Positions 1 to 42,183 of a DNA stretch of 42,183 nt are shown here, in pieces. Position 1 is the stretch's first letter; the number at the start of each line of letters is the position of its first letter. The stretch is from a virus: positions 1 to 42,183 of IMG/VR virus record IMGVR_UViG_3300011114_000884. The stretch is one strand, 5' to 3'. Below the pieces are notes generated by a model. That model saw nothing but the letters and a program-made list of their open reading frames with translations. It was not told the origin of the DNA and did not search any database. The translations under genes were made by a program, and so were the position numbers.

Positions 1-127
1 CGGGCTTGGAATCAGCCGACACAACGCGATAAACCCCGCCATGCTCAAAGACAATCTCATCTTTTCTGTCGCTCTTGAGCTTGAACGGCCCCTGCTTCAT
101 CCACGCGGGCAATCCATTGCACCAATC
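1..127. repeat. Terminal direct repeat, left copy (circular-assembly overlap)
   Basis: These 127 bases are identical to the last 127 bases of the window (42057-42183). Both copies lie inside the terminase large subunit gene, and joining them keeps its reading frame. A repeat of exactly 127 bases equals a k-mer size commonly used by short-read assemblers, so it is most simply an assembly overlap of a circular or circularly permuted molecule, not a biological terminal repeat. This origin is an inference; the identity itself is seen directly. Confidence 0.95.
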
Positions 128-478
128 ACGCACTTGGGTAAACATTGCAATGGCTTCTGGCCCCGTATGCAGCACACTGATTGCACACAGGTTGGCGTTG
201 AACATCACCTTCCACAAGATGTAAGACATGATTGCGCGCGACACGCCTGCACGCCGGAATTTGAGCACCATCGACGATCCATTCTTGATGAACGTGCGCA
301 ACGCGACCCGCTGCGCCCTTCTCAAGGCAAACCGCACCGTCTTTGACGTGTCTCTGTCCACGACTGGCAAGTAAGTCTTGCGGAAGTAGTTGTAATCCTT
401 CTTGCACCGCTCAAACTCTGCGCGCAAATCGGACTCTGACAGCGGGTTGTGAACTAGGGTTGCTTCAAGTTGGCTCAT
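1..478 (-). CDS. terL: Terminase large subunit, N-terminal part (continues at 42056)
   Basis: This is the first 159 codons of the packaging ATPase-nuclease; the rest is at 40825-42056 across the circle junction. The joined protein is 569 aa, normal for TerL. The start ATG at 478 gives MSQLEATLVH. Residues 72-82 (LKFRRAGVSRA) fit the variant Walker A seen in many phage terminases, where basic residues precede G-[IV]-S. They are followed by the usual strand and helix (VLHTGPEAIAMFTQVRDW, about 102-119). No gene lies in the 210 bases upstream, which separate it from a divergent + strand gene. The window cut makes the gene look split; there is no real truncation. Confidence 0.93.
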   Translation of the reverse strand, partial: MSQLEATLVHNPLSESDLRAEFERCKKDYNYFRKTYLPVVDRDTSKTVRFALRRAQRVALRTFIKNGSSMVLKFRRAGVSRAIMSYILWKVMFNANLCAISVLHTGPEAIAMFTQVRDWCNGLPAWMKQGPFKLKSDRKDEIVFEHGGVYRVVSADSKP

Positions 479-688
479 TGCCAAAAGTATTGCGCAACTT
501 GCCGTTTTGTGCGACAACAGGATTGCGACCACGCGCCTTGTGAAACGGGCAAACGTCGCGGCAAGGCATCATGCTTATCAATTTCCTGCACATAGCGCAG
601 CGTCTATCGGTTGCCCTTCACGGCTCGCCTTGCCCCGTGTTGCGCAGTTTCGCCCGATGGACGCTGCGCTATGCGTGGGAACTGCGCG
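479..688. promoter_or_regulatory. Divergent intergenic region with a 23-bp element shared with the terS start
   Basis: This is the 210-bp gap between terL (-) and the winged-helix gene (+). Positions 491-513 carry a 23-base element that begins TGCGCAA and ends CCGTTTTGTGCG. It recurs with 20/23 identity in inverted orientation at 2310-2332, over the first codons of the probable terS gene. No convincing protein gene fits here: the short frames present lack ribosome binding sites. A control role for one or both flanking genes is likely; the exact promoters are not clear by eye. Confidence 0.5.
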
Positions 689-1324
689 ATGACTAGACGC
701 TTTGCGTTATTGCCTGACGATTTAATCTGCGCACTAGACGGCCAAACCGTTCGCGTGCTTGGTTTGCTCGCAACTTACGCCGACTTCAAAACAGGGCAAA
801 ACGCCTTCCCCTCAATCAGCACACTCGCAACCCGCCTAAACGTCGCAGAAAACACCGTGCGGCGAGCGCTAAAACTTGGCGTTAAATCTGGCGCACTCAC
901 CGCGCACAAACACCACGGCAAAGGAATGCAGCAACAAACAACATCGTACGACTGCCTTTGGATACCTAGCGCAATCATTCCAAAAAAGGCACGAGGGGTG
1001 CAGCCCACTGAAGCCCTAGGGGTGCAGCCCACTGAAGCCTATCTAACTCAGAATACCTTACTCCCAGAACTCGGCCCTACGCTGACTGCGCCCGACTTTC
1101 GCAATGCACGGGCTTGGCGTGTTGCTAAAAGCGACGCTCAACAATTGATTATTGCTTGGAACGAACTCAATCCCATCGCAAAACACCCGCCGCTTGAGGA
1201 TGCTATTCCTGTTGCTTATCGCGACATTTGGGCCACGCACACGCCCGAACAGATGGTTGCGCTTTTACGCCCCGCAGCGCTTCGCGGTGACACGTTGATT
1301 GCCGCGCTGCGAAATAAAAGTTGA
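689..1324 (+). CDS. Winged-helix DNA-binding, replication-type protein
   Basis: A 211-aa protein. Residues about 15-75 form a winged helix typical of plasmid and phage replication initiators: VRVLGLLATYADFKTG, then SISTLATRLNVAENTVRRAL, then the wing SGALTAHKHHG. The middle is a linker holding two tandem copies of GVQPTEA, coded by a 24-bp direct repeat at 994-1039. Linkers of this style occur in phage replication (O-like) proteins. The start ATG at 689 is preceded by TGGGA and begins just before the fold; upstream in-frame codons to 611 lack fold content. It lies alone on the + strand between terS and terL, both on the - strand. It could be a replication initiator or a transcription regulator; the sequence does not separate these. 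Confidence 0.65.
   Translation: MTRRFALLPDDLICALDGQTVRVLGLLATYADFKTGQNAFPSISTLATRLNVAENTVRRALKLGVKSGALTAHKHHGKGMQQQTTSYDCLWIPSAIIPKKARGVQPTEALGVQPTEAYLTQNTLLPELGPTLTAPDFRNARAWRVAKSDAQQLIIAWNELNPIAKHPPLEDAIPVAYRDIWATHTPEQMVALLRPAALRGDTLIAALRNKS
994..1039 (+). repeat. 24-bp tandem repeat inside the winged-helix gene
   Basis: Two copies of a 24-bp unit (22 identical bases starting AGGGGTGCAGCC, at 994 and 1018) code for the repeated peptide GVQPTEA. The period is a multiple of three, so gain or loss of a copy keeps the frame and only changes linker length. Confidence 0.9.
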
Positions 1325-1699
1325 CCAGCGAAGATTTTTACCCGCACAGCCCAAATCCCATGATCACATTTTATCCGCTGAGGCGAGCTAAAACGGTAAG
1401 CTAGCGGGATTGTTTAGTAAGTGTGCGCAAATTAGGGTTGGTGGAGTTTGGATTGTAGCAATAATGCGGGGTTAGCTGAAAACCAGTTGGGAATTTTTTC
1501 GCGTCGATTGTCTGGGCTACAACTGCCGCGTCCCCCTACCCTGATCACACATTGCCCGCGCGCACCCCGCACCCGCTTGCCCCTTCCATTGCGCACAATC
1601 GCCTACGCTCACAGCCACTTAGCTATGCCACGCCACACCGCAAACAATCGGCTACGGGTATTGTCGCCCTATCTCTAACCCGCTTGCAAACCCGCGTAG
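1325..1699. other. Non-coding segment with a bulged hairpin and motif half-sites
   Basis: This 375-bp stretch lies between the 3' ends of two convergent genes and has no supported CDS. Positions 1375-1407 can fold into a 9-bp stem (CCGCT/AGCGG outside, AGCT/AGCT inside, 6-nt bulge) followed by GATTGTTT, a weak terminator candidate for the + strand gene. AAAACGGTAA (1390-1399) and TGCGCAAATTA (1424-1434) match the two halves of the 23-bp element found at 491 and 2310. Positions 1530-1690 are strongly C-rich on the + strand with degenerate repeats around CAATCGSCTACG. A replication origin or packaging site is possible but unproven. Confidence 0.4.
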
Positions 1700-2335
1700 C
1701 TAATCGGATTCAGGCTCAACTGTAAGCGTTCGGCTGGCGCGGTCTTCTTTAGCTATCTGCTCGATGTCATCGACAGCGGTGCGCCTGCCAGCCAAATCCT
1801 TTAGCCAATCAGCTAGATCGCCCATATCGCCACGGACTTGCACGCCTAGCAGGTTGGCGCGACGGGTTTCAATGTCCACGAGCGCGCGCTCGGCTGCAAT
1901 CTTGGTATTGTCGCTAGCTGTGGAATTGCGTGCAATCTTGCGCAGTCTGACGCGGGAGTCGTCTAGGCGGGCGGAGATAATTACACGCCATTGCTCAGCG
2001 TCCATCGCGTGGGCGAGGCGCTGGCGGTGGAGCATCGCGCGGAGATCTTGAGTAACGGTGTCCACGCCGATTTTAAGTTGTCGGGCGATTTCGCGTTGGC
2101 TGTAGCCATTGAGGCTAAGCTGTAGCACGCTCGACTGTCTGGCGGTTACCGCAATCTCCGTTGCCATACCATCGCCAGTCTGAGTTGGACGTGGCCCGAG
2201 GTTCGCAATTATCGGCTTTGCGATTGTCCGCCTTCTACCGTCTTTTACCTCGCCATTATCCGCCATACCCGTACAATCGCTGATTCTATTGCCAATTGCA
2301 AGCTCACCCCGCACAAAACGGTAATTTGCGCACAT
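1700..2335 (-). CDS. Probable terminase small subunit (HTH protein)
   Basis: A protein of 211 aa from the ATG at 2335; an internal ATG at 2167 would give 155 aa and contains all recognisable sequence. Residues about 66-92 form a clear helix-turn-helix (LSLNGYSQREIARQLKIG, then DTVTQDL). Next comes a helical region with IAAERALVDIETRRANLLGV. This arrangement, an HTH followed by a basic A/E/R-rich helix ending in LLG, is typical of phage small terminase subunits that bind pac/cos DNA and load the large subunit. The first 56 residues are low in structure and overlap the 23-bp regulatory element, which makes the longer start doubtful. A transcription regulator is the main alternative. It is separated from terL by an opposite-strand gene, which is unusual. 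Confidence 0.6.
   Translation of the reverse strand: MCANYRFVRGELAIGNRISDCTGMADNGEVKDGRRRTIAKPIIANLGPRPTQTGDGMATEIAVTARQSSVLQLSLNGYSQREIARQLKIGVDTVTQDLRAMLHRQRLAHAMDAEQWRVIISARLDDSRVRLRKIARNSTASDNTKIAAERALVDIETRRANLLGVQVRGDMGDLADWLKDLAGRRTAVDDIEQIAKEDRASRTLTVEPESD
2310..2332 (-). repeat. 23-bp element, inverted copy of 491-513
   Basis: Read on the - strand this begins TGCGCAAATTA and ends CCGTTTTGTGCG. It matches 491-513 at 20 of 23 positions, too long to be chance in 42 kb. A second GTGCGCAA lies 21 bp upstream on the same strand (2347-2354), about two helical turns away, which suggests a protein-binding site array at the terS start. Confidence 0.7.
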
Positions 2336-2486
2336 TTAACCAAACCTTGCGCACTTTATCCGATAGCTAATTTAGTAATACGCTGTTATTATTGAATGAA
2401 AAATAATGTTTCAATCTGGCATGATTCTCGCAATACACTTTGACCAGTGTCTAGATTGAATCTGCGGCGGGTTGCTGCGGAACTAA
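2336..2486. promoter_or_regulatory. AT-rich divergent control region between terS and the first leader gene
   Basis: This is the most AT-rich stretch of the early side. It holds an inverted repeat ATTGAA (2391-2396) / TTCAAT (2410-2415), a third ATTGAA inside the perfect palindrome GATTGAATC (2454-2462), and TTGCGCAC (2347-2354). Promoters for both flanking genes should lie here, but no -35/-10 pair stands out on either strand. Repressor operators and an origin are both possible. Confidence 0.4.
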
Positions 2487-2514
2487 GCCGGTGACACGGC
2501 AAGAGAGTAAAGAG
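2487..2514 (+). promoter_or_regulatory. GTGACA-loop leader hairpin, copy 1
   Basis: The stem is GCCG (2487-2490) with CGGC (2497-2500), closing a GTGACA loop (2491-2496). It is followed by the purine-rich AAGAGAG that must serve as the ribosome binding site for the ATG at 2515. The hairpin ends 14 nt before the start codon. The same loop, spacing and downstream purine tract precede the next three genes with different stem sequences. Confidence 0.7.
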
Positions 2515-3090
2515 ATGAATACAGATAAGAAAGTTACCTATCGTCCTGAGGCAATTGCCTTAGCAAGCGGTTTGGTTAGTCAGGGTAAGGGCGATATAAC
2601 GACTACGCGGGCAATCGTCGCGGAGAGTTTGGCGTGGTTGCAGTCGATTGACCCTTCTTACCGCCGCGAGTCTTTGAGCGATCAAGAGGTTGAGCGTATC
2701 GGCGAAATTCAGGGCGAACTTGACGAAGAACGACGCACTAGAGCCACGTTTGAAGTGCAGGTTAAAGAACTCCGTTCGCGGGTTGAATCGTCCGCAGCAG
2801 GGCATAGTGTTGCTTTGGGCCAAATCGACATGCTAACTCGTGACAATTTGGAACTGCGCAATCGGCTGTCCGCCGCGACTGCTGCGGTCAAGCCTGCGGT
2901 TGTCGCGCCTGTTATCCCGCCCCCGCCGATTAAGCCCGTTGCTGTCGCGCCGGTGGTCAAAGTTGCCCCTGTTGCGCAAGCGGGCAGCGTTGACCCGTTC
3001 GGACACCTGCCCGCACACATGCAGGCGTGGGCGCGCGCCAAGTCTGCCGCGACGTTTGCACCGTCCGCTCCTGGGATTGAAATCGACTAG
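2515..3090 (+). CDS. Coiled-coil protein with proline/valine-rich linker, unknown function
   Basis: A 191-aa protein I do not recognise. Residues 8-45 look like a small helical domain (YRPEAIALASGLVSQGKG). Residues about 62-120 are a charged coiled coil (EIQGELDEERRTRATFE). Residues about 123-155 are a Pro/Val/Ala linker (APVIPPPPIKPVAVAPVV), and the last 35 residues may be a small tail motif (FGHLPAHMQAWARAK). The ATG at 2515 was chosen because it sits after AAGAGAG; in-frame GTG at 2491 lies inside the leader hairpin loop. It is first in a group of four genes that share the GTGACA-loop leader, so probably the group is co-regulated at the RNA level. Confidence 0.75.
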   Translation: MNTDKKVTYRPEAIALASGLVSQGKGDITTTRAIVAESLAWLQSIDPSYRRESLSDQEVERIGEIQGELDEERRTRATFEVQVKELRSRVESSAAGHSVALGQIDMLTRDNLELRNRLSAATAAVKPAVVAPVIPPPPIKPVAVAPVVKVAPVAQAGSVDPFGHLPAHMQAWARAKSAATFAPSAPGIEID

Positions 3091-3104
3091 CAAGCTCGCA
3101 GGGT

Positions 3105-3134
3105 CAAGCCTCTCAGCGCAATCTGAGGGGCTTG
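3105..3134 (+). terminator. 12-bp stem hairpin after the coiled-coil gene
   Basis: CAAGCCTCTCAG (3105-3116) pairs over 12 positions, one of them G-U, with 3123-3134 around a CGCAAT loop. A second stem, CAAGC/GCTTG (3137-3141 with 3148-3152), closes a GATTTT loop directly after it. There is no long T tract, so it could be a weak terminator, an RNA processing site or part of the leader fold of the next gene. Confidence 0.5.
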
Positions 3135-3155
3135 CACAAGCGATTTTGCTTGACC

Positions 3156-3186
3156 GCCCCGTGACAAGGGCAAAAGAGAGGACACA
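3156..3186 (+). promoter_or_regulatory. GTGACA-loop leader hairpin, copy 2
   Basis: The stem is GCCC (3156-3159) with GGGC (3168-3171), and the loop is CGTGACAA. It is followed by AAAAGAGAGGA, a strong Shine-Dalgarno, and the ATG at 3187. The hairpin ends 15 nt before the start codon. The stem differs from copy 1 but pairing is kept. Confidence 0.75.
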
Positions 3187-4185
3187 ATGACAGCAGTTAC
3201 CAACTACGCGGGCACAACAGCCCCGATGAGCCGGTTCAAAGACGGCGCGGTTTTAATCCCCGAAGGCAGCGACCCCGGCGCTGTGATTATGGCGCACCCG
3301 ATTTTGGGCAGCGCAATTGAAACCGTCCCCATGATGTGCGCTAGTTTTCACCCACCCTATGTCCAGGACGTGGGCGATCGCCAGATCGTCCGCGTTGTCG
3401 ATTCAAAGGCATTGGGCGTCGTGGGCAAGCGTTACAAGGGTTTGAAGATCGCCAGTTTGGCTGGGTTGCTGACTAAATTGCATAAAGAATTTGGTTTGTC
3501 GTTTGAAACCGCGATGTTGCTCGAAAACGACACCACGTTTCTCACACAAGCCTCGCTGCGCACGTTTGACCTTGGCCCCCTAGCGTCAACTCAGCGTGCC
3601 AAACTGGACACCAACGGACGTGATTTGGTGAAGGGCTTCATGACGTTCGCCGACAACTTTGTTGGCAAGCGCAACGCCACTGTCGGCGCAGCGCACACCC
3701 GCGCGGTTTGTGAGAATACGGCGGCGGCGGCAATCGCCGAGTCAAAAGAATCGCTGTACGGCAAGCCAATTCGCCACACGGGCGATGTTGATTTGAAGCT
3801 TGACCAGTGGCACAAGGCGATTGAAGACAGCTTGCAAGCGCTGGCGCGGTTCGAGGAATTTGCGACGTGTGCCGCGCAAACCAAGGTGACGCACAGCGAC
3901 GCACAAGGTTTGATTGACCTGTTAATTCCGGTGCCGGTTGACGCGAGCCCAGTTAAGGCTCAAAGCAAGCGCGATGCGATTTATGCGGCTTTTGACAATG
4001 GCATCGGCAATTCAGGCCGCACCGCTTGGGATTTGTACAACGGCGTCACCGAGTACGCCAATTGGAGCGCACCCGTGCGCGGTGCTGACCCGCACAAGGC
4101 CCGCATGGAGTCGATTTTGTGGGACGGTTTGGGCGATTTGGTTCAGACCGCTGAAACACACTTGCGGATGTACCTGAGCCTTTAG
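3187..4185 (+). CDS. DUF932 / phage-plasmid-like protein
   Basis: A 332-aa protein. The C-terminal block TAWDLYNGVTEYANW (about 279-293) is the signature of the DUF932 family (phage/plasmid-like protein TIGR03299), as is the preceding region of alternating conserved aromatic and charged residues. The biochemical role of this family is not established; members are common on phages and plasmids and often highly variable. The start ATG at 3187 has an AGAGAGG site 7-8 nt upstream. It lies second in the four-gene leader group, with 96 bp of leader before and 116 bp after. Its length is typical for the family. Confidence 0.8.
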   Translation: MTAVTNYAGTTAPMSRFKDGAVLIPEGSDPGAVIMAHPILGSAIETVPMMCASFHPPYVQDVGDRQIVRVVDSKALGVVGKRYKGLKIASLAGLLTKLHKEFGLSFETAMLLENDTTFLTQASLRTFDLGPLASTQRAKLDTNGRDLVKGFMTFADNFVGKRNATVGAAHTRAVCENTAAAAIAESKESLYGKPIRHTGDVDLKLDQWHKAIEDSLQALARFEEFATCAAQTKVTHSDAQGLIDLLIPVPVDASPVKAQSKRDAIYAAFDNGIGNSGRTAWDLYNGVTEYANWSAPVRGADPHKARMESILWDGLGDLVQTAETHLRMYLSL

Positions 4186-4195
4186 CCGCTGAGGG

Positions 4196-4211
4196 GTCGC
4201 TGTGAAGCGAC
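4196..4211 (+). other. GNRA-capped hairpin in the third leader
   Basis: GTCGCT (4196-4201) pairs perfectly with AGCGAC (4206-4211) around a GTGA tetraloop, a standard stable RNA loop of the GNRA class. It lies 11 bases after the DUF932 stop codon and starts a 116-base non-coding leader. Confidence 0.6.
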
Positions 4212-4272
4212 TAAAGCGCCTGCGCTGTGCAGCCGGTCCCAAGCCCGGATAAAAAGCCAAGGGTACTACAAA

Positions 4273-4301
4273 GCGCTGTGACAAGCGCACAAGAGGGCCA
4301 A
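4273..4301 (+). promoter_or_regulatory. GTGACA-loop leader hairpin, copy 3
   Basis: The stem is GCGCT (4273-4277) with AGCGC (4284-4288), five pairs here, closing the loop GTGACA (4278-4283). ACAAGAGGG follows as ribosome binding site, then the ATG at 4302. The hairpin ends 13 nt before the start codon. Confidence 0.75.
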
Positions 4302-4457
4302 ATGATTAGCTTTAATTTCGCAGTCTGCATCACCGGTGGCACTGTCCGTTTCCAAACCTTGGCGCAAGCGATTGCTTTCTATGACAATTGCATGGCCGAT
4401 CGTCCCCGCTCGCTGTGGTACGGCAGCGAACGCTTGAACCGCGAACGCTACCTGTAG
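4302..4457 (+). CDS. Small hypothetical protein of the leader group
   Basis: A 51-aa protein (starts MISFNFAVCITGG, ends SLWYGSERLNRERYL). It is compact, with no membrane segment, and rich in aromatic residues toward the end. I do not recognise a family. The start at ATG 4302 is fixed by the AGAGGG site and by the leader hairpin at the same distance as in the other three genes; upstream in-frame codons run through the leader. It is third of four genes that share this leader. Confidence 0.7.
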   Translation: MISFNFAVCITGGTVRFQTLAQAIAFYDNCMADRPRSLWYGSERLNRERYL

Positions 4458-4472
4458 CCGATTGACTGCAAA

Positions 4473-4522
4473 GGGTTTGAAGCCCGCGCGGGGTGCAAGT
4501 CCCCGCATTGCAGCCGCGCAAT
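4473..4522 (+). other. Three consecutive small hairpins in the fourth leader
   Basis: GGGTT/AGCCC (4473-4477 with 4481-4485, one G-U), GCGGGG/CCCCGC (4488-4493 with 4501-4506, loop TGCAAGT) and ATTGC/GCAAT (4507-4511 with 4518-4522) follow one another directly. The 107-base leader is thus almost wholly paired before its GTGACA hairpin. Loops of the form GGG-T-n-AAG-CCC resemble a tRNA T-arm, but no cloverleaf or acceptor stem is present. Confidence 0.5.
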
Positions 4523-4533
4523 GTGCGCGCAAA

Positions 4534-4564
4534 GGCCCGTGACAAGGCCAAAGGCAGGAAACCC
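4534..4564 (+). promoter_or_regulatory. GTGACA-loop leader hairpin, copy 4
   Basis: The stem is GGCC (4534-4537) with GGCC (4546-4549) around CGTGACAA. It is followed by AAAGGCAGGA as ribosome binding site and the ATG at 4565. The hairpin ends 15 nt before the start codon. Confidence 0.72.
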
Positions 4565-5281
4565 ATGAGACCCGTAAAGAAAATCGACTTTGGTGAACCC
4601 ATCCGCAAGGAATTAGCGCAAGCGTTCAAATTCGCAACTGGTGAATCAGCAAACCAAACTTGGCAGCGAACGGTGTTGCTACAACGCTGCGGTGACATGG
4701 TGTTTGCCGTGACAACAAAAGACTGGAACATTCGCATCGCGCCGCTGTCGCCTGAAGTTGCGGAACAACTCTGCAACCTTATGCCGCAAAAGGTAACGCT
4801 GCCACCAATGTTGGCAGCGTTTGACGCGGACACCGCGCGATGTGTTTGGGGTGAAAGTGCGGATGAGGGTAGGGTCAAGCTGTATCGCGGGCGAACGGTG
4901 TTTAACCTGCACAATTTTGCGGAATATTGGCTTGACTGGCAAAATCTAATCCCGGCAATCGATACTGCGCCAAACTCGTTTTGGCTTGACCCAGCCCTTG
5001 TCGCGAAATCACTGAAACTAAAGGACGGCGCCGCAATGAATTGGCAGCAAAAGCTGCAATACAAAGCAATCTGCGATGTTGCGCGCGCGGCCAAAGACTG
5101 CGGCGCGAACGCATCACTGCATTACGGCGACGACAATCAATCTGCGATGGTGACTGCTGACGGCAAAACCATGCATATTTTAAGCGCAAATGCCGCGCCG
5201 TGGTCGGCTTTGGATGCCTGGTTTAAGCGTGGTGGAAATACCGCCGCGCAAGTCGATGACACCATGCGCAAAGCAGCATAG
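4565..5281 (+). CDS. Hypothetical protein, weak resemblance to sliding-clamp-like phage proteins
   Basis: A 238-aa protein, last of the leader group. The block around 118-140 (NFAEYWLDWQNLIP, then SFWLDPALVAKSLKL) and the later GDDNQSAMVTADGKTMHIL are placed like the 'pdwr..iP', 'n..ll.kvlk' and 'iv...g..HilmP' strands of beta-clamp-like proteins that some phages carry. That similarity is from memory and faint; no catalytic motif is visible, so the product is best called hypothetical. The start ATG at 4565 is favoured by AGGA upstream and the leader hairpin spacing. Codon use matches its neighbours. Confidence 0.65.
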   Translation: MRPVKKIDFGEPIRKELAQAFKFATGESANQTWQRTVLLQRCGDMVFAVTTKDWNIRIAPLSPEVAEQLCNLMPQKVTLPPMLAAFDADTARCVWGESADEGRVKLYRGRTVFNLHNFAEYWLDWQNLIPAIDTAPNSFWLDPALVAKSLKLKDGAAMNWQQKLQYKAICDVARAAKDCGANASLHYGDDNQSAMVTADGKTMHILSANAAPWSALDAWFKRGGNTAAQVDDTMRKAA

Positions 5282-5346
5282 TCGCCAAGGTTCGCTACAA
5301 TCTGTATCTAATCGGCTACAGATTGCAGCGGGCGAGAAGTGACCAA

Positions 5347-5466
5347 ATGAGCAAGAAGTTGGAGGTAATTTTCGGCGCACGTCTGCCAGTTCCGGCTGGG
5401 TCGGTAGCTCCCCGATTGTCACCAGACGTGCGCCGAAAAATGCTAACCAACGCAATCTGCTGCTGA
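5347..5466 (+). CDS. Possible 39-aa peptide read through a large inverted repeat
   Basis: The ATG at 5347 opens a 39-codon frame (starts MSKKLEVIFGARL, ends TNAICC, TGA at 5464). Upstream is GCGAGAAG, an acceptable but not strong ribosome site. Most of the frame lies inside the 17-bp inverted repeat described at 5369-5439, so the codons may be incidental to an RNA or DNA structure. It is not recognised as any family, and lies just before the 5477 promoter. Confidence 0.35.
   Translation: MSKKLEVIFGARLPVPAGSVAPRLSPDVRRKMLTNAICC
5369..5439. repeat. 17-bp perfect inverted repeat, three-way-junction fold
   Basis: TTTTCGGCGCACGTCTG (5369-5385) is perfectly complementary to 5423-5439. The 37-base interior holds two further small stems: CCAG/CTGG (5386-5389 with 5396-5399) and TCGG/CCGA (5401-5404 with 5412-5415). 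The whole can fold as a three-way junction. T and A runs sit on the wrong sides for a classical terminator on either strand. It ends 37 bp before the early promoter. Confidence 0.7.
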
Positions 5467-5476
5467 AAAAATAAAG

Positions 5477-5504
5477 TTGACATGTGTGTAAATACTGCTA
5501 GACT
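5477..5504 (+). promoter_or_regulatory. Sigma70-type early promoter
   Basis: A perfect -35 TTGACA (5477-5482), a 16-bp spacer and a -10 TAGACT (5499-5504) preceded by TGC, an extended -10 feature. It lies 32 bp before the GTG start of the first gene of a long overlapping operon and is the best promoter I see in the window. Confidence 0.75.
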
Positions 5505-5536
5505 GAATCAGGGCGCGATAGCCCGCGAGGCGTACA

Positions 5537-5779
5537 GTGGAAAACGAAATAACGGCCCGCGATTGCGACGTGGCTGAGTTTATTCGCAAATCCCGCGAGG
5601 CTGGCGTCACTGACGCAGCAATCGCGGTTCAATTTGGCGTGAATCCCACAACTTACCGCCGCTGCTGGTTGCGGCTGGTGGCTGCGGGGTTGGATTGCGG
5701 AAGCCCACGTAGGGCTGGGCAACCCCGGCATATTTTAGTGCTGCCCGACACGGAGCCAGTGCAATCGAGGTTGAAATGA
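5537..5779 (+). CDS. Small helix-turn-helix protein
   Basis: An 80-aa protein starting at GTG 5537, with GAGG seven bases upstream. Residues about 11-45 read as a helix-turn-helix (VAEFIRKSREAGVTDAAIAV, then FGVNPTTYRRCW). The C-terminal part is basic and without clear fold. It is first in the operon from the 5477 promoter, a place where phages often encode a regulator. It overlaps the next gene by 4 bases. DNA binding is inferred from the HTH pattern only. Confidence 0.6.
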   Translation: MENEITARDCDVAEFIRKSREAGVTDAAIAVQFGVNPTTYRRCWLRLVAAGLDCGSPRRAGQPRHILVLPDTEPVQSRLK

Positions 5780-6015
5780 TTACGCAAGAGGAAATTTGTG
5801 ACAGCTATCCCACTGAAGTTCACGATGCGCTGGACGCGATTGACCGGAACCGTGTGGCTCGCGCGCTTTGGCGCGACACCCCGCCACGGCCTTCAAATTT
5901 GCCCTCAGAGGCGCGTTTGTTTGCGTGGCGTGTCGTTGGCTGCCTGTTGGCGCTGGTGACAGTTTGCGGGGCGGTTGCGCTCGCGGATGCGTTGATTCAG
6001 ATGGTGGCGCAATGA
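5776..6015 (+). CDS. Small C-terminally anchored membrane protein
   Basis: A 79-aa protein with an acidic N-terminal part (TQEEICDSYPTEVHDALDAI) and one hydrophobic segment near the C-terminus (about 52-72, VVGCLLALVTVCGAVALADA), so tail-anchored in the inner membrane. Ribosome site GAGG stands nine bases before the ATG. It overlaps both neighbours by 4 bases, indicating translational coupling. The function is unknown; small early membrane proteins in phages often act on the host. Confidence 0.65.
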   Translation: MITQEEICDSYPTEVHDALDAIDRNRVARALWRDTPPRPSNLPSEARLFAWRVVGCLLALVTVCGAVALADALIQMVAQ

Positions 6016-6227
6016 CCCGCCCACCTGACCCGCCAGACAACCCGCCGTTCTACACAATCGCCGGGATGAATCGCGCATGGCGCGCAGCCTATGCCCGCGA
6101 CGGCGGGGAATTTTGGCCGCGCGACGAACAGCCGGACGCGGAGCCGGACACCGACGAAATCGCCGGTGAAATTGACCCGTGTGCGGTGCCGAGAACCTAC
6201 CCGAAACAGCTAACAATCGGAGATTGA
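6012..6227 (+). CDS. Small acidic hypothetical protein
   Basis: A 71-aa protein starting at ATG 6012, overlapping the previous stop (ATGA). The N-terminus is proline-rich (RPPDPPDNPPFY), followed by AGMNRAWRAAYARDGGEFW and an acidic tail. No membrane segment and no recognised family. The tight overlap and good composition support a real gene in the early operon. Confidence 0.55.
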   Translation: MTRPPDPPDNPPFYTIAGMNRAWRAAYARDGGEFWPRDEQPDAEPDTDEIAGEIDPCAVPRTYPKQLTIGD

Positions 6228-6228
6228 A

Positions 6229-6477
6229 ATGCTTGCTATTCTTACATATTCAGCACGATTTGACACCGACATCGACAAAATCCGCTGCGAAAGTTTTGGG
6301 CGTCCGTTGACCGTGGGCAATCTCGACACAGCGATCGAGCAGGGGCACGCGATCGAGATTAACCTTGGTGGCGGCTATTGGGTCACGCTGCCCGCATCCG
6401 AGATCGCGGCGGTCGATCACAGGCTCTACGAATCGCTGCTGCCAATTCACGCAGCGGTGGCGGCGAAAAATGCGTAA
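6229..6477 (+). CDS. Small hypothetical protein
   Basis: An 82-aa protein that starts MLAILTYSARFDTD; GGAG lies 6 bases before the ATG. The pattern suggests a small alpha/beta fold (LTVGNLDTAIEQGHAIEINL, then YWVTLPASEI). No recognised family. It follows its neighbour by one base and overlaps the next gene by 8 bases. Confidence 0.6.
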   Translation: MLAILTYSARFDTDIDKIRCESFGRPLTVGNLDTAIEQGHAIEINLGGGYWVTLPASEIAAVDHRLYESLLPIHAAVAAKNA

Positions 6478-6640
6478 CCTGCTGCAACAATGGGCAGAAC
6501 TCGACGCAGCCGAGCGTGCTTTTGCGGCGATGAGTGATGCCGCCGCCACCAAAGGCACGCGCAAGAACCAGCGCAACCGCTTGTTTTTAGCAGTGGAACG
6601 GCTGCGGAAGGCGCGGCGGGAGGTGTCACGTGCGCTGTGA
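6470..6640 (+). CDS. Small basic helical protein
   Basis: A 56-aa protein starting at ATG 6470 with a purine-rich site (GGTGGCGGCGAAAA). It is helical and basic toward the C-terminus (RNRLFLAVERLRKARREV). It overlaps the previous gene by 8 bases and the next by 11, so it is part of the same packed operon. No family recognised; nucleic-acid or protein binding would fit the charge but is a guess. Confidence 0.55.
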   Translation: MRNLLQQWAELDAAERAFAAMSDAAATKGTRKNQRNRLFLAVERLRKARREVSRAL

Positions 6641-6761
6641 TTCCTGCGGTCAATCCCGCGAAATCATATTGAACTCGGCAGGCGAGTGCTCGCGTTGCCG
6701 ACAACTGCCGTGGCGCTCGCGGCTCAAGCGGACGTTTTGGCTTTGGTGGATTCGCCACTGA
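6630..6761 (+). CDS. 43-aa zinc-ribbon peptide
   Basis: A GTG start at 6630 follows an excellent GGGAGG site by 6 bases. The 43-aa product begins MRCDSCGQSR and continues GECSRCRQLP, giving two CxxC pairs spaced as in a zinc ribbon, then a basic and Trp-rich tail (RLKRTFWLWWIRH). It overlaps the upstream gene by 11 bases. Tiny CxxC proteins are common in phage early regions. Function unknown; nucleic-acid binding is possible. Confidence 0.55.
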   Translation: MRCDSCGQSREIILNSAGECSRCRQLPWRSRLKRTFWLWWIRH

Positions 6762-6829
6762 TTCCCAACCCTTCCGCAGCGGTCAAGGATGGCTACTGCA
6801 CAACCGCGCTTCGGCGCAAGGAATTTGAA

Positions 6830-7657
6830 ATGTTTACACAAGGTCAAAGGTGCTTTTCCGATTCTGGGCGCGAAGTTGAGTATCTCGCGCCACTGCCAAA
6901 CGGATTCCACTTGGTCTACCCGTTTTTGGAGGCCGACGATTACGAATACCGTTCGCCCGAACCAACCGTTGTTGAGCGGCTTTTTGCCGAAGCGCCTACG
7001 CAAGTGAAAAATGCGGAGTTGGCTGAACTTGAAGCGCAAATCGCGAGCAAGCGCGATGAGTTGCGCATGGTCAACTCGGACATTCGCGGCATTCAAGCCA
7101 CGCGCGAGAAACTTCTCGCGAAATTACAGGATGTTCCAGAACTTCAGCGCATCGCCGATTGGCTCGACGGTAAGATCACCTGCTTTGTAGTGCATGACAA
7201 TTACAGCCTTTCATTCAAGGCGTTCAGCGAAATTGGGGAGGGAACGGACAGCGAGCGGGACATGGTGCGGCTACTGTGTTTGACCGGAGACGCCACGACC
7301 AAGGGAATATCGTGGAAATTCAACCGCTACAAGGACGGCAGCGGCAGTTGGACTGACTGCATTCCTTGCGCCGACGCCTCGGAACAAATGGCTGCGGGTC
7401 AAAAGATTGCCGATGCTTGGTGGCGGCAACGCGATCGGGACTGCGCAGAACACGTTAGAATTTCACGGATTAGAAGCTGTTTGGCGCATGGGCTTACTGT
7501 GCCGCCCGACGCCCGCGACCTGCTTGCTCGTTTTGATGTGGATCTGGCGCAAAAGAAATTGACCCACGCAAAACACGAACTTGCGTCGTATCAAGCGAAA
7601 GTGGACGCGCTCATCGCCAAATTAGCCCAGTCCAACCCGCTTGACGCCGCCCGTTGA
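6830..7657 (+). CDS. Hypothetical protein with two coiled coils
   Basis: A 275-aa protein. The ATG at 6830 is preceded by AAGGAA at good spacing; the frame is open further upstream but without a site. Residues about 58-98 form a coiled coil (LAELEAQIASKRDELRM), then a globular middle (WLDGKITCFVVHDNYSLSF), and a second coiled coil near the end (LTHAKHELASYQAKVDALIA). I do not recognise a family. The position between small early genes and the replication genes suggests an early role. Confidence 0.7.
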   Translation: MFTQGQRCFSDSGREVEYLAPLPNGFHLVYPFLEADDYEYRSPEPTVVERLFAEAPTQVKNAELAELEAQIASKRDELRMVNSDIRGIQATREKLLAKLQDVPELQRIADWLDGKITCFVVHDNYSLSFKAFSEIGEGTDSERDMVRLLCLTGDATTKGISWKFNRYKDGSGSWTDCIPCADASEQMAAGQKIADAWWRQRDRDCAEHVRISRIRSCLAHGLTVPPDARDLLARFDVDLAQKKLTHAKHELASYQAKVDALIAKLAQSNPLDAAR

Positions 7658-7785
7658 CCTGTGTTACAAACGAAACCCAGCAAGCGCCTACAACCGACTT
7701 GCAGCACCCGTTCCCAGAATCGCCCGCTGCCTCGCCCCACGACCCGCAGCACAGCGAACCGTTACCGCCCCCGACTGTGTTGTAG
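7654..7785 (+). CDS. Possible 43-aa proline-rich peptide
   Basis: A TTG at 7654 overlaps the previous TGA and opens 43 codons rich in Pro, Gln, Thr and Ser (TNETQQAPTTDLQHPFPESP). The overlap style matches other genes here, but there is no ribosome binding site. It fills most of the 163-base gap before the replication gene. Weakly supported. Confidence 0.25.
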   Translation: MTCVTNETQQAPTTDLQHPFPESPAASPHDPQHSEPLPPPTVL

Positions 7786-7820
7786 CAGTCGGCGTGGCGG
7801 ACGGTGTCAAGGAATTGGTA

Positions 7821-8681
7821 ATGCCCGATCCTGCATGGTTCCACCCAATTGACTACACCGACGTGCAAGCGCTGCGCAAATTCACGCCGTCGCAGCGCTG
7901 GACATACATCGAACTGTTCAGCGGTGAACTTGGCAGCAAACACGGGCTTGTCGAAGTCCGCAGCGCCCTTATCGCTGGCGAATTGGATTGCGAGCGAGCG
8001 ATAATCGACTTCGACATCGCCGCGCTGGACGCGGGCGGCGCGATCATTTGGGACGCAGCGAATCGGCTGGCGTACCAACTCGGCCATTTGCTCCGACATT
8101 GCCCAAACGACAGCGCGCGCGATGCTTGGCGCAAGGCTATCCGAAACCTTCCGCAAGGTTGCGCGACCAATGCTGCACTCTCTGAGCTAGACGGCACACC
8201 GTGCCCCCACCGTGGCAGCACCGTGGTGGCACCGTTCGCGCGCGTTGAACAGGAACAGGAACAGGAACAGGAACAGGAACGTAAAACAGGAACGGGAACA
8301 TCTACGGGAACAGGGTCGCCTTCGGCTCCCGCTCCCGCTCCGGCTGCGCCAGAGCAATTGATCCTTGAAGCTGGTGAGGCAAAGGGTAGGGACAAAACAC
8401 CACCCCCCTTGCCGCCCAAGACACGCAAAGACCGCTGCACTATCGCGCAAGCCACTGAATATGCAAACGAACTCAAAATGCCAACCGGCACCGGCGAGAA
8501 GTTTGTCAATCATTACGACTCTATCGGCTGGAAACGTGGTAAAGCAGCAATCCTTGACTGGAGGGCGACGATGCGAACGTGGCGGAATAACGAAAACAAC
8601 AGCGGCGATCGCTACCGAGGCAAGGTTGACAACCGCGCCCCAGTCAGAGAGATCGAGGGCGAAAACGAGGTGTTCTTTTGA
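7821..8681 (+). CDS. Replisome-organiser-like replication protein
   Basis: A 286-aa protein; ATG 7821 follows AAGGA by 7 bases. The N-terminal ~110 residues are a conserved-looking domain (WFHPIDYTDVQALRKFTPSQ). A low-complexity linker follows (EQ repeats, then TGTGTSTGTG and AP repeats, about 143-175). The C-terminal block FVNHYDSIGWKRGKAAILDW and TMRTWRNN matches the W-x-G-x-x-I-x-W-x2-x-x-W ending of phage replication proteins of the O / DnaD-like organiser type. These bind the origin and recruit the helicase loader, and the next gene is indeed a DnaC-like loader, overlapping by 4 bases. The linker length may vary because of a hexanucleotide repeat. Confidence 0.7.
   Translation: MPDPAWFHPIDYTDVQALRKFTPSQRWTYIELFSGELGSKHGLVEVRSALIAGELDCERAIIDFDIAALDAGGAIIWDAANRLAYQLGHLLRHCPNDSARDAWRKAIRNLPQGCATNAALSELDGTPCPHRGSTVVAPFARVEQEQEQEQEQERKTGTGTSTGTGSPSAPAPAPAAPEQLILEAGEAKGRDKTPPPLPPKTRKDRCTIAQATEYANELKMPTGTGEKFVNHYDSIGWKRGKAAILDWRATMRTWRNNENNSGDRYRGKVDNRAPVREIEGENEVFF
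8247..8280 (+). repeat. GAACAG hexanucleotide tandem repeat
   Basis: Five full copies of GAACAG plus GAAC lie inside the replication gene and encode an alternating Glu-Gln tract. The unit length keeps the frame if copies are gained or lost. Confidence 0.95.
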
Positions 8682-9505
8682 GCAACGATTATAATGACTA
8701 TGGCGAAACCTTCCAATCCGCCCCACGTCCGCCGCCGCTGTACGATCGGCCCGGCCACGAACTTGTCAGCACGCCAGCCGAGGCATTGGCGCAGAACTAT
8801 TGGATCTGCCGCGATGAATTGGGCTTCACTTATCCGTTTGGCAACGGCGTAATCAAACGGCCCGACGGCACAAGTTGCATCGTGACCACGGATTGCTACG
8901 GCAGATGCACGCGGCTTGAACGCGATGCCAGCGGTAGCGCCGTCAAGCCCAAGGAAATCGCCGCCGAGCATGATTCGCCGCCGTGGACGGTCAATGGCAA
9001 GCCGGTCACTGTGACGCCGGAAATCGAGCAGTGCAAACGCTGGGCTGCCGACTATCGGGCGGGCGGGCGACACGGGCTGCTGCTGAGCGGCGGAGTCGGC
9101 ACAGGCAAAAGCAATGCTGCGACCTGGATGTGCATTGACGCCGCCGCCCGCTACGAAATCGTCCAGAACTGGCTTGAATTTGTGCGGGAAATGCGCAGTG
9201 AGTACGGCAAAAGCGAACGCCAGTTTGACGATCGGATCGCCGTTGTCAGCAAAGCTGCGGTTTTGATTCTGGAAGATTTGGAAGTGCCGACCGCGAACGA
9301 CGATCGGCAACTGCTGGCGCAGATTATCGATGCCCGCTGGCGCAACAAACTGCCAACAATAATCACCTGTAACATGACGTTGCCGGAGTTGGAGAAAGCA
9401 GGGCTTGACGCGAGAGTTGCAAGCAGAATCGGCAGTTACAGCAAACTGCTGTTTCGTGGGCAGGACTTTAGACGCAGCCGAACCGCTGCAAAGGATGCGA
9501 GATGA
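8678..9505 (+). CDS. DnaC-like helicase loader ATPase
   Basis: A 275-aa AAA+ ATPase. Walker A is LLSGGVGTGKSN (about 135-146), Walker B is AVLILEDLEVP (about 194-204), sensor 1 lies at TIITCNMTLPEL (about 227-238), and an arginine-finger-type Arg lies in DARVASRI. Spacing and the LILEDL Walker B match the DnaC/IstB family, which loads the host DnaB helicase. It begins with TTG at 8678, supported by GAGG seven bases upstream and overlap with the previous stop; no ATG exists before the Walker A region. It acts together with the preceding organiser. No helicase is encoded, so host DnaB is the likely partner. Confidence 0.85.
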   Translation: MSNDYNDYGETFQSAPRPPPLYDRPGHELVSTPAEALAQNYWICRDELGFTYPFGNGVIKRPDGTSCIVTTDCYGRCTRLERDASGSAVKPKEIAAEHDSPPWTVNGKPVTVTPEIEQCKRWAADYRAGGRHGLLLSGGVGTGKSNAATWMCIDAAARYEIVQNWLEFVREMRSEYGKSERQFDDRIAVVSKAAVLILEDLEVPTANDDRQLLAQIIDARWRNKLPTIITCNMTLPELEKAGLDARVASRIGSYSKLLFRGQDFRRSRTAAKDAR

Positions 9506-9936
9506 GCCGATACCCCAACAGCAATTTATTCGGCGAGGATGTAATCATAATCCCCAACGATCCCGGTGATGCGGCCAAAGCCTACGCGGCCACAATCGCG
9601 CTGCGCCACTTCGACGTGATTGACGAACTGCTCAACACGTTCGCCGTCTCGGCGGTCAACTGCGCAAGTTTTGCCGCAGTTAACTCGCAAGGCGCACGCC
9701 CACGATGGATGCGAGACGCCATCGATGAGCGAACAGCGGCGGCAGACGCGATTGTGGCCGCGTTGCTGTCGCGTGATGGCGAAATCGCCAGCCAGCGTGA
9801 CGAATTGTCACGACTTCGCAAAGAACTTGCGGACATGACTGACAAATATCTTGAGGCGATCAAGCCACTCGACAGCCGCGAATGCCCAGCCTGCGGACAC
9901 CCGTTGTGTGATGGCGAAATCTGCACGGAATGCTAG
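9502..9936 (+). CDS. Hypothetical protein with C-terminal zinc ribbon
   Basis: A 144-aa protein, ATG 9502 overlapping the loader stop. The middle contains a coiled coil (about 90-118, DGEIASQRDELSRLRKELAD). The last 20 residues carry ECPACGHPLCDGEICTEC: four cysteines in two pairs suited to zinc binding. A metal-binding ending on a coiled coil suggests a nucleic-acid or protein adaptor. It is last in the promoter-5477 operon before a 132-base gap. Confidence 0.65.
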   Translation: MSRYPNSNLFGEDVIIIPNDPGDAAKAYAATIALRHFDVIDELLNTFAVSAVNCASFAAVNSQGARPRWMRDAIDERTAAADAIVAALLSRDGEIASQRDELSRLRKELADMTDKYLEAIKPLDSRECPACGHPLCDGEICTEC

Positions 9937-9980
9937 GGTTGAAACAGCCGTGATTGCGGGGCGATACAACTATTTTGCGG

Positions 9981-10042
9981 CGATTGCATTTATTTGCACA
10001 AATCCGCTTGACACTGCCGCCGATTGCATTATCCTGCACAAC
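9981..10042 (+). promoter_or_regulatory. Two 20-bp direct repeats flanking and covering a promoter
   Basis: CGATTGCATT begins at 9981 and again at 10021, exactly 40 bp apart. Each is followed by AT-TTTGCACAA-like sequence (ATTTGCACAA, then ATCCTGCACAA). The second copy overlaps the -10 of the promoter at 10008-10035, and the first is upstream of its -35. This is the layout of paired operators bridged by a dimeric regulator. The HTH protein coded just downstream is the obvious candidate. Confidence 0.6.
10008..10035 (+). promoter_or_regulatory. Sigma70-type promoter before the recombination module
   Basis: A -35 TTGACA (10008-10013), 16-bp spacer and -10 TATCCT (10030-10035). It lies 33 bp before the ATG of the small HTH gene and would drive the ATPase-nuclease-RecT-RusA genes. 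Confidence 0.65.
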
Positions 10043-13498: not shown

Positions 13499-13790
13499 GA
13501 ACGCAAGGTTGCGCTGTGGTCCGGCAGGATCGCCACACCAGCGCAGCCGTGCCAGCGAGGGATGGCCAATCCCCGTGGGCAGTGAGTAGGCCCCGTAATC
13601 TCACTGCTGGCGACATCGGGGCAAATTCGAGCGGGTGGTAACCGCGAGTAGTTCCGGGGAGTCGAGCCGGACGTTAGTCGCGACGAAATAAGCGGCGCGG
13701 GGATGGCCAACCCCAGAACCATAGAGCCTAAGCCAGCGAGGCGCGCGCCGGACTGGCCCGAACGAGCGCAACTGCGCAGAGGTGTTGGGG
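13499..13790 (+). ncRNA. Candidate structured RNA between recT and rusA
   Basis: 292 bases without a supported gene, dense in complementary segments. (1) 13511-13519 pairs with 13533-13537 and 13541-13544 (GCGCTGTGG arm, 3-nt bulge). (2) GGGAT/ATCCC (13559-13563 with 13569-13573). (3) CAGTGAG/CTCACTG (13580-13586 with 13600-13606), whose loop holds GCCCCG (13590-13595) able to pair with CGGGGC (13617-13622), an H-type pseudoknot. (4) GCGG/CCGC (13631-13634 with 13642-13645). (5) TCCGG/CCGGA (13653-13657 with 13667-13671). (6) GGGG/CCCC (13699-13702 with 13711-13714). Hairpins 2 and 6 share GGATGGCCAA, and GCCAGCGAGG occurs twice (13551, 13732). It matches no RNA family I can name, and the alternative is an unrecognised DNA element. 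Confidence 0.5.
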
Positions 13791-40824: not shown

Positions 40825-42183
40825 TTAACCCCGCTGAATTAAATCGAATGTGGACGCCATACCGCCGCCTGCGCCGCCAAACAGTTCTTCGTACCAATCG
40901 GTTTCAAAGTGGTCGCCAACGCCCGCAGTGTGTCCGGTTTGCGATTGAAAAGCCACCCGCTCCTGTAACGTGATAGGACGCTTACGCAATTGCACTTCTT
41001 CGACGCGCTGGATTTGCTGGCGACCGACAAGACACAAGCCGTCGGCGCGCACCATGTCGTCGTGGTTGCCTGCGCCTGCTTCGGCTTTGGTGCCCTCAGC
41101 CCACAAAAAGTCGTTCATCTCATGGCAAAGCCGCTGATTCACCGATGGATCTAACTTGCCGCCGTTTAGGAACTCCTGCGACAGTGCCACCAACTCCGCA
41201 TTGGCCGATGGCCCAGGCGTTCGCCCCAACCGCTCACTTGGTTTGCCTGTGGTGGAATCCTTGAACACTTCGACCCAGAACAAACTCCAACCCAACTCCA
41301 CCAAACGGCTAATCACATCGCGGCCCCACGCGTCCCGCTCGCCGATAAACAGCGCCGTGTAGCGCTTCAACGCCTCATGGACTTTGCTGGCAAACACGCT
41401 GTTTTCAATCTTGTCGTAGAAGCTGGCAACAATGCGCGGCTTTTCAGGGTCGGACACCTCTTGCACTTCAAACGCTTGGTAATCGCCGTCCTCGCCGCCG
41501 CCCGCAGCATCGCTGCCAAGCACATACAATCCATAGGGAAGCGGCGCTTCGTATTCCTCATAGCCGCGCTTAGGTTTGGCCATTGGATAGTGCGCCGTGA
41601 ACACGCGGCCTTTGGCTGTGGTAAACGCCAAGTCTGCGGTTATCGGCATTTCTTGGTGAAAGCCGCGCCAAACCGCTGCTGAATTGCCTTCTGAGTAGTT
41701 GTTGCTGCGAAGGCGTGCGCCAACCCATCTGGCTTGATCTTCTGTCAGGCCATATTTCATCGCGTAGTTGGCAACTTCTGGCCAAATCAGGTCTGCGGGA
41801 TTCTTGACGCCTTCGGCAATTGCCTTCTCGGCGGTCAACGCATACTGACCATCGAGCGTCCACGGCAAAAAGACTTTGCCCCAGCCATTCTCACCGCGCC
41901 AAGTGGTAAAGGCATGGCCCACACCTTCGGCAGTCGTTTCATAAATCGCCCGACCGTGCGCAGCCGATCCGTTTTCAATAATTCGGATAATACCTTCGGG
42001 GTCTGCGTACTTGGCAAACTCTGAATAATGCCGATACCACCAAGTTGGGCCACCAGCGGGCTTGGAATCAGCCGACACAACGCGATAAACCCCGCCATGC
42101 TCAAAGACAATCTCATCTTTTCTGTCGCTCTTGAGCTTGAACGGCCCCTGCTTCATCCACGCGGGCAATCCATTGCACCAATC
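40825..42183 (-). CDS. terL: Terminase large subunit, C-terminal part
   Basis: Continues the gene that starts at 478; bases 42057-42183 duplicate 1-127. In full-length numbering: a Walker B-like HYSEFAKY at about 169-176 (Ser-Glu instead of Asp-Glu, known in this type), the ATPase coupling motif YETTAEGVG (about 198-206), and a RuvC-like nuclease with LGSDAAGGGEDGDY (Asp342), FIGERDAWGRDVI (Glu399) and GNHDDMVRADGLCL (Asp492/493). All expected motifs are present. It translocates DNA through the portal and cuts it. The stop is one base from the next start. Confidence 0.93.
   Translation of the reverse strand, partial: DWCNGLPAWMKQGPFKLKSDRKDEIVFEHGGVYRVVSADSKPAGGPTWWYRHYSEFAKYADPEGIIRIIENGSAAHGRAIYETTAEGVGHAFTTWRGENGWGKVFLPWTLDGQYALTAEKAIAEGVKNPADLIWPEVANYAMKYGLTEDQARWVGARLRSNNYSEGNSAAVWRGFHQEMPITADLAFTTAKGRVFTAHYPMAKPKRGYEEYEAPLPYGLYVLGSDAAGGGEDGDYQAFEVQEVSDPEKPRIVASFYDKIENSVFASKVHEALKRYTALFIGERDAWGRDVISRLVELGWSLFWVEVFKDSTTGKPSERLGRTPGPSANAELVALSQEFLNGGKLDPSVNQRLCHEMNDFLWAEGTKAEAGAGNHDDMVRADGLCLVGRQQIQRVEEVQLRKRPITLQERVAFQSQTGHTAGVGDHFETDWYEELFGGAGGGMASTFDLIQRG
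42057..42183. repeat. Terminal direct repeat, right copy
   Basis: Identical to 1-127. See the left copy; together they show that the contig closes into a circle of 42,056 bp. Confidence 0.95.

Follow-up and report, generated by a model that had tools for sequence, protein, structure and literature searches.

A constant-loop RNA hairpin before four consecutive genes of a phage operon with a predicted Twister-P5 ribozyme

A short RNA hairpin with a constant GUGACA loop stands just before the start codons of four consecutive genes in a phage genome, and this raises the question of what such an element does there, and whether it acts alone or as part of a larger signal in the messages of the operon. 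The window, i.e., the whole stretch of DNA analyzed here (42,183 nucleotides, IMG/VR record IMGVR_UViG_3300011114_000884), very probably represents a complete phage genome of ~42 kb, since it carries an exact 127-bp direct terminal repeat (1–127 and 42057–42183) and the terminase reading frame runs on across the record ends. Besides the terminase, genes for a portal protein, a major head protein and a head-tail adaptor-like match were recognized. The genome is very divergent: the best matches of portal, capsid and terminase in named phages share only ~20–34% identity. Exact-peptide searches for close relatives (DUF932 and portal in IMG/VR, DUF932 in GTDB contigs) gave none among the records covered, and neither did blastn of positions 2400–5400 against phages. 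Elsewhere in the window, ~290 nt of GC-rich noncoding sequence (13502–13790) hold two GGATGGCCAA(T/C)CCC-type repeats; with a fold z of −1.75 this region is not clearly structured RNA.

All four genes preceded by the hairpin lie on the plus strand, and a known domain is found only in the second. Gene 1 (2515–3090, 191 aa) matches no family and looks coiled-coil-like by eye; a homologue is present in the closest relative found, L374 (tblastn, 34% identity over 58 aa, E 2e-10). Gene 2 (3187–4185, 332 aa) encodes a DUF932 protein (Pfam PF06067, E 2e-25) that is 53% identical to its L374 counterpart; its AlphaFold model is fairly confident (pLDDT 81) and gives no fold match in the PDB below E = 0.17. 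Gene 3 (4302–4457, 51 aa) and gene 4 (4565–5281, 238 aa) are open reading frames for which the family search returned no family. A 17-bp inverted repeat on the same strand closes the operon (5369–5439, arms 5369–5385 and 5423–5439) and is possibly an origin, attachment or boundary element; its flanks, U-rich on the 5′ side and A-rich on the 3′ side, are unlike those of an intrinsic terminator.

Four hairpins with a constant loop

The hairpins are located on the plus strand at 2487–2500 (copy 1, GCCG-GUGACA-CGGC), 3156–3171 (copy 2, GCCC-CGUGACAA-GGGC, i.e., GCCC-C-GUGACA-A-GGGC), 4273–4288 (copy 3, GCGC-U-GUGACA-A-GCGC) and 4534–4549 (copy 4, GGCC-CGUGACAA-GGCC, i.e., GGCC-C-GUGACA-A-GGCC), as supported by sequence and fold. 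An initial annotation of this DNA had placed them correctly to within a base, and its spacing of 13–15 nt between hairpin and start codon agrees with the purine-rich gaps of 14, 15, 13 and 15 nt that we measure to the ATGs at 2515, 3187, 4302 and 4565, respectively. When the copies are set in a common 16-nt register, copy 1 reads AGCC-G-GUGACA-C-GGCA, and copies 2–4 show GCCC-C, GCGC-U and GGCC-C on the 5′ side of the loop and A-GGGC, A-GCGC and A-GGCC on the 3′ side. The innermost full stem pair, C-G, is constant in all four copies, the next two pairs vary on both sides with pairing kept, and copy 1 lacks the outermost pair. A hexaloop would be closed at a position that is G-C in copy 1 and U-A in copy 3; in copies 2 and 4 it is a C-A mismatch, which leaves both with a 4-bp stem and an 8-nt loop. 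The annotated picture of paired stems around a constant GTGACA thus stands, as do the compensatory changes it described, whereas the loop of copies 2 and 4 is to be read as 8 nt and not 6, and the claim that stems differ yet always pair has to be qualified for the invariant innermost pair and for the pair absent from copy 1.

The bare hairpins fold with energies of −5.5 to −7.7 kcal/mol, the lowest value being that of copy 1. In longer contexts the hairpin still dominates the fold, leader 2 being the exception; there, a rival upstream pairing prevails once at least 30 upstream nt are included. Judged by eye, a pseudoknot between loop and upstream sequence (GUCA with UGAC) is possible in leader 2 only.

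By itself, GTGACA occurs about as often in the window as expected (19 observed versus 19.4 expected). However, none of 20,000 dinucleotide shuffles gave the four leaders one shared hexamer with stems of 3 bp or more on its flanks, and a common loop and stem in three of the four leaders came up in one of 20,000; the loop-plus-stem pattern of the four leaders is therefore not a chance occurrence. Pair counting over the four sequences gives both-sided changes in three of five stem pairs and 85% paired cells, compared with 10–50% when the partner is slid, and the covariation is 0.53 versus 0.15 in shuffled sequences (n = 4), statistics that are weak for four copies from one genome. An explanation by chance, or by simple duplication of a leader without function, would fit with there being four sequences only and no copy elsewhere; it is nevertheless highly improbable in view of the shuffles, the stems that changed on both sides with pairing kept, and the upstream leader sequences, which appear unrelated by eye. 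With four sequences, an origin of the hairpins by leader duplication and subsequent drift keeps some probability.

The initial annotation also held that no other gene in the window shows the element, and this is borne out by a covariance model of the four copies, which gives nothing else in the genome below E = 7 and no meaningful score in the L374 contig or at other DUF932 loci. The hairpins are absent from Rfam, riboswitch families included, in that no match covers them in window positions 1–10000 up to E 10. With lax filters, leaders 2 and 4 alone give only weak Rfam matches (miRNA, mascRNA and isrL), all far below cut-off, the isrL match that overlaps hairpin 4 scoring 7.4 bits against a cut-off of 35. 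A scan of IMG/VR for a twister plus GTGACA gave no match, and the GCCC-stem hairpin has six matches there, none of which is clearly a leader. Among the matches listed from scans with the loop plus ribosome site, the GCC stem and the CGC stem, those inspected look coding or scattered, e.g., one in contig L083 that falls inside a 502-aa reading frame. In contig L007, GCCCCGTGACAAGGGC (748–763) lies 11 nt before the ATG of a phage gene; this is a single match, possibly due to chance, and constitutes no evidence. The distant DUF932 genes of Appavirus, Sonali, Mx1 and Stigma have no such hairpin, at a divergence too great to count against the motif, and our search of the literature on GUGACA hairpins, or on DUF932 with ribozymes, yielded nothing relevant.

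Structured leaders and a Twister-P5 match

The leaders differ upstream of the hairpin. Leader 3 contains a predicted Twister-P5 self-cleaving ribozyme (4187–4248, plus strand), matched over the full length of the Rfam model (RF02684, positions 1–58) with 47.5 bits against a cut-off of 37.6. The match starts directly behind the DUF932 stop codon and lies just upstream of hairpin 3, and in the predicted fold the stop-codon region pairs with sequence after the twister as an outer helix. The family consensus would place its cleavage site between U4212 and A4213. The same model finds no second match in this genome, and Hammerhead_II gives no match in it up to E 10. The initial annotation had recognized the repeated leader element itself and had missed both the ribozyme lying inside its region and the ribozyme-punctuated kind of operon to which the element belongs.

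In leader 2, positions 3091–3152 of the plus strand fold into a 12-bp hairpin within CGC/GCG and CAAGC/GCUUG helices (z = −4.8), for which Rfam with lax filters offers no meaningful match. This structure resembles the P1/P2 region of twister in its CGC/GCG helix, internal loop and 12-bp hairpin, without the UAA signature. Leader 4 folds as a three-way junction with a T-arm-like hairpin, and includes a tRNA-like acceptor/T-arm fold (4467–4512, plus strand; UGCAA..CGGGGUGCAAGUCCCCG..UUGCA). Its best Rfam match, mascRNA, is weak (16.7 bits, E 0.32, cut-off 42.5), ARAGORN calls no tRNA, and the Twister-sister model, tried for the UGCAAGU loop of this leader, has no match in the leaders. The T-arm/acceptor stem could serve as a site for RNase P. 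Upstream of its hairpin, leader 1 shows little structure.

Leader signals in related DUF932 operons

L374 (IMGVR_UViG_3300011114_000676) is a 36.8-kb contig with the gene order of the window, i.e., gene 1, DUF932, a small gene, gene 4 and an inverted repeat, here of 13 bp (6013–6025 and 6084–6096). The two fourth genes have no detectable similarity, and the same applies to most other genes. Before the four genes of L374 there is no GUGACA hairpin, no twister and no Rfam match; instead, GGAGACACC(N0-3)ATG occurs exactly four times in the contig, each time before one of the same four gene positions, with the signal located at the ribosome site. Each of these leaders also has a stem of 5–7 bp that ends 12–15 nt before the ATG. 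Such stems appear individually in 13–31% of shuffles, and the product of ~0.002, with a stem definition chosen post hoc, is only suggestive of stems beyond chance. The initial annotation had held that leaders lacking a pairable stem in related phages would speak against its element, and here the comparison divides: L374 does have stems able to pair, equally far ahead of the same four genes, but the GUGACA loop is absent. Judged from the sequences, the conserved feature is the repeated per-gene leader signal and not the GUGACA hairpin sequence, because L374 has a signal of its own at the same four positions and no GUGACA. The signal is common within each phage and different between phages, and this phage specificity, together with fourth genes that lack detectable similarity, points to a function that belongs to the operon and not to the homologues of any one gene.

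A profile of distant DUF932 proteins was searched against IMG/VR, and its best 80 loci, L374 among them, do not represent a random sample; the virus records retrieved by DUF932 homology number 78. Hammerhead cores first surfaced in a k-mer look at the leaders of these other loci and were confirmed with Rfam models. Matches at E ≤ 0.01 were counted in 8 of the 78 records, seven with hammerhead II and one with Twister-P5, and 14 control genomes gave no match in the same searches. Type-II hammerheads number seven in L435 (four of them above cut-off), four in L375 (one of which precedes DUF932 itself), two each in L413 and G048, and one each in G012, G058 and G013, the last being weak. In L391, three Twister-P5 matches above cut-off flank the DUF932 gene, one of them directly behind its stop codon, as in the window; a weak Twister-P5 match in G062 (E 0.009, 17 bits) was not counted. 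Type-II hammerhead arrays, several of them below the Rfam cut-off, were noted before DUF932-operon genes in L435, L375 and L413 (G049, G002, G040). Separately, L395, L430, L444, L401 and L439 have 8-mers common to several gene leaders (e.g., AGAGACAG and CGGTGGTA), which are not hammerheads by eye and could be further leader signals.

In 12 inspected ribozyme leaders from L435, L375, L413 and L391, the ribozyme 3′ end lies ~9–25 nt before a plausible start codon, and in L435 the gap is 14 nt in three of four cases; the hairpin gaps in the window fall within this range. This placement is in agreement with published phage ribozymes. Clusters of hammerheads flank single phage genes, tandem arrays show activity in vitro, as does one array in E. 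coli, and HHphage, a halovirus hammerhead, lies 13 nt ahead of a start codon (PMC3088659); ribozymes are also known to be grouped close to other ribozymes and to Mu-like phage genes (PMC10085705). The window shares with the phage clusters of type-II hammerheads and Twister-P5 an RNA element before individual genes that ends ~13 nt before the start (PMC3088659; PMC10085705), however, the GUGACA hairpins match no ribozyme model, and a model match is present in only one of the four leaders.

The placement also bears on the suggestion that the hairpin is itself the 3′ domain of a self-cleaving or otherwise processed RNA, e.g., a derived twister-like fold. The hairpin sits where ribozyme 3′ ends sit in other DUF932 phages, its 4-bp stem and 8-nt loop are like those of the last twister hairpin with a similar ribosome site after it, and two of the three twister hairpins in L391 are directly followed by CAAGAGRGG, much as the window hairpins are followed by their own sequence; the strongly folded leader 2, with its twister-like helix, internal loop and long hairpin upstream, fits as well. 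We regard this origin as improbable all the same, since the Twister-P5 and hammerhead-II models give no second site in this genome, the hairpin of leader 3 stands apart from the full twister there, the twister pattern is missing from the loop, and leaders 1 and 4 are without the upstream fold of leader 2.

Recognition of the loop and the role of the leader module

Hairpins bound by the coat proteins of RNA phages and translational repression in T4 are known examples of phage translational operators. As in those systems, the hairpin in the window adjoins the ribosome site and might serve a common repressor, but it lies upstream of the ribosome site and does not overlap it, it precedes four genes, and no repressor was identified. 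An operator in this sense, at which a protein of the phage or its host recognizes the GUGACA hairpin and either bars the ribosome from the four genes or brings it to them, with the ribozymes incidental, is a serious possibility, though on balance a doubtful one. A constant loop speaks for its being recognized specifically, and in combination with a variable stem it is what one usually sees where a loop is read by its sequence; furthermore, the hairpin is directly upstream of the ribosome site in four of four leaders, and boxB-type phage hairpins with GNRA-like penta- or hexaloops are bound by phage peptides (PMC12550061). Against the operator stand the absence of a candidate binding protein and the other shared sequence, lacking the GUGACA loop, that L374 has before the same four genes.

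Among known structural types, the nearest is a protein-binding hairpin of the boxB kind. The boxB elements of lambda, P22 and phi21 resemble the window hairpins in being small GC-rich phage stems with several variants and a possibly GNRA-like loop; they have a pentaloop where the window has a hexa- or octaloop, for which a GNRA-like fold is possible. For nut-like antitermination elements, with boxB-like hairpins read by an N-like peptide, it can further be said that P22 boxB is a GACAA pentaloop with the C flipped out (PMC12550061) and that copy 3 reads GCGCUGUGACAAGCGC. This is a very remote explanation of the locus, as the plus strand of 2300–5400 has no boxA-like match, no small arginine-rich open reading frame with a ribosome site was found, and the four copies, one before each ribosome site, are unlike the single nut site of an operon. 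The hairpins are consequently not assigned to boxB, as boxA and an N-like gene are missing. CsrA/RsmA sites were considered as well and rejected; the loop holds no GGA and is GUGACA in all copies.

The initial annotation had proposed a phage-encoded RNA-binding regulator or a small ligand sensor acting on the four messages, and the searches that found neither a candidate regulator nor an N-like reading frame do not bear this out. Its wider suggestion of an undescribed translational control element holds insofar as the element is repeated, conserved in structure, absent from Rfam and suitably sited, and a control element common to the four genes is a sensible suggestion.

With moderate confidence, we read the hairpin as a module in the leaders of a phage operon punctuated by ribozymes, one that displays a constant loop next to each ribosome site once the message is processed. 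The four hairpins would represent a single cis-acting RNA module in four copies, each closing the 5′ leader of one gene of the operon, and the intergenic regions would serve as sites of RNA processing and punctuation. A long transcript would be cut between genes, by the Twister-P5 in leader 3 and perhaps by other structured leaders in vivo, and each processed mRNA would then carry a short constant-GUGACA hairpin right beside an open ribosome site. The hairpin most likely would stabilize and insulate each processed message at its 5′ end, and its loop, possibly GNRA-like as G-U-G-(AC)-A, may be offered to one factor that sets the translation of the four genes together. What speaks against such a leader module is that a recognized ribozyme is found in only one of the four leaders here, with leaders 2 and 4 matching no family and leader 1 being little structured upstream, that ~70 of the 78 DUF932 records have neither hammerhead II nor Twister-P5, that L374 lacks the GUGACA loop, and that duplication and drift of a leader keep some probability. 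We put forward more tentatively, as rather unlikely, that the hairpins represent a new class of phage regulatory hairpin with a constant GUGACA loop and a freely varying GC stem, which would mark each gene of the ribozyme-punctuated operon and whose copies would all be read by one factor that sets translation of the operon as a whole, and that self-cleaving or processed RNAs not described so far may lie in leaders 2 and 4.

Related phages have ribozymes or another shared signal at the same spot, so the hairpin probably belongs to a signal for mRNA processing and translation that is repeated gene by gene, and is not an isolated curiosity. The reason for ribozymes right before single phage genes was left open when the arrays were described in 2011 (PMC3088659), and such placement was still called unexplained in 2023 (PMC10085705). 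Related DUF932 operons provide interchangeable solutions at one spot, ~9–25 nt before the start codon, namely hammerheads, twisters and the constant-loop hairpin, the last of which comes after a twister in one leader of the genome described here. The comparison therefore makes the role of these pre-gene elements a testable question, with message cutting, a new 5′ end and ribosome loading as the possible answers.
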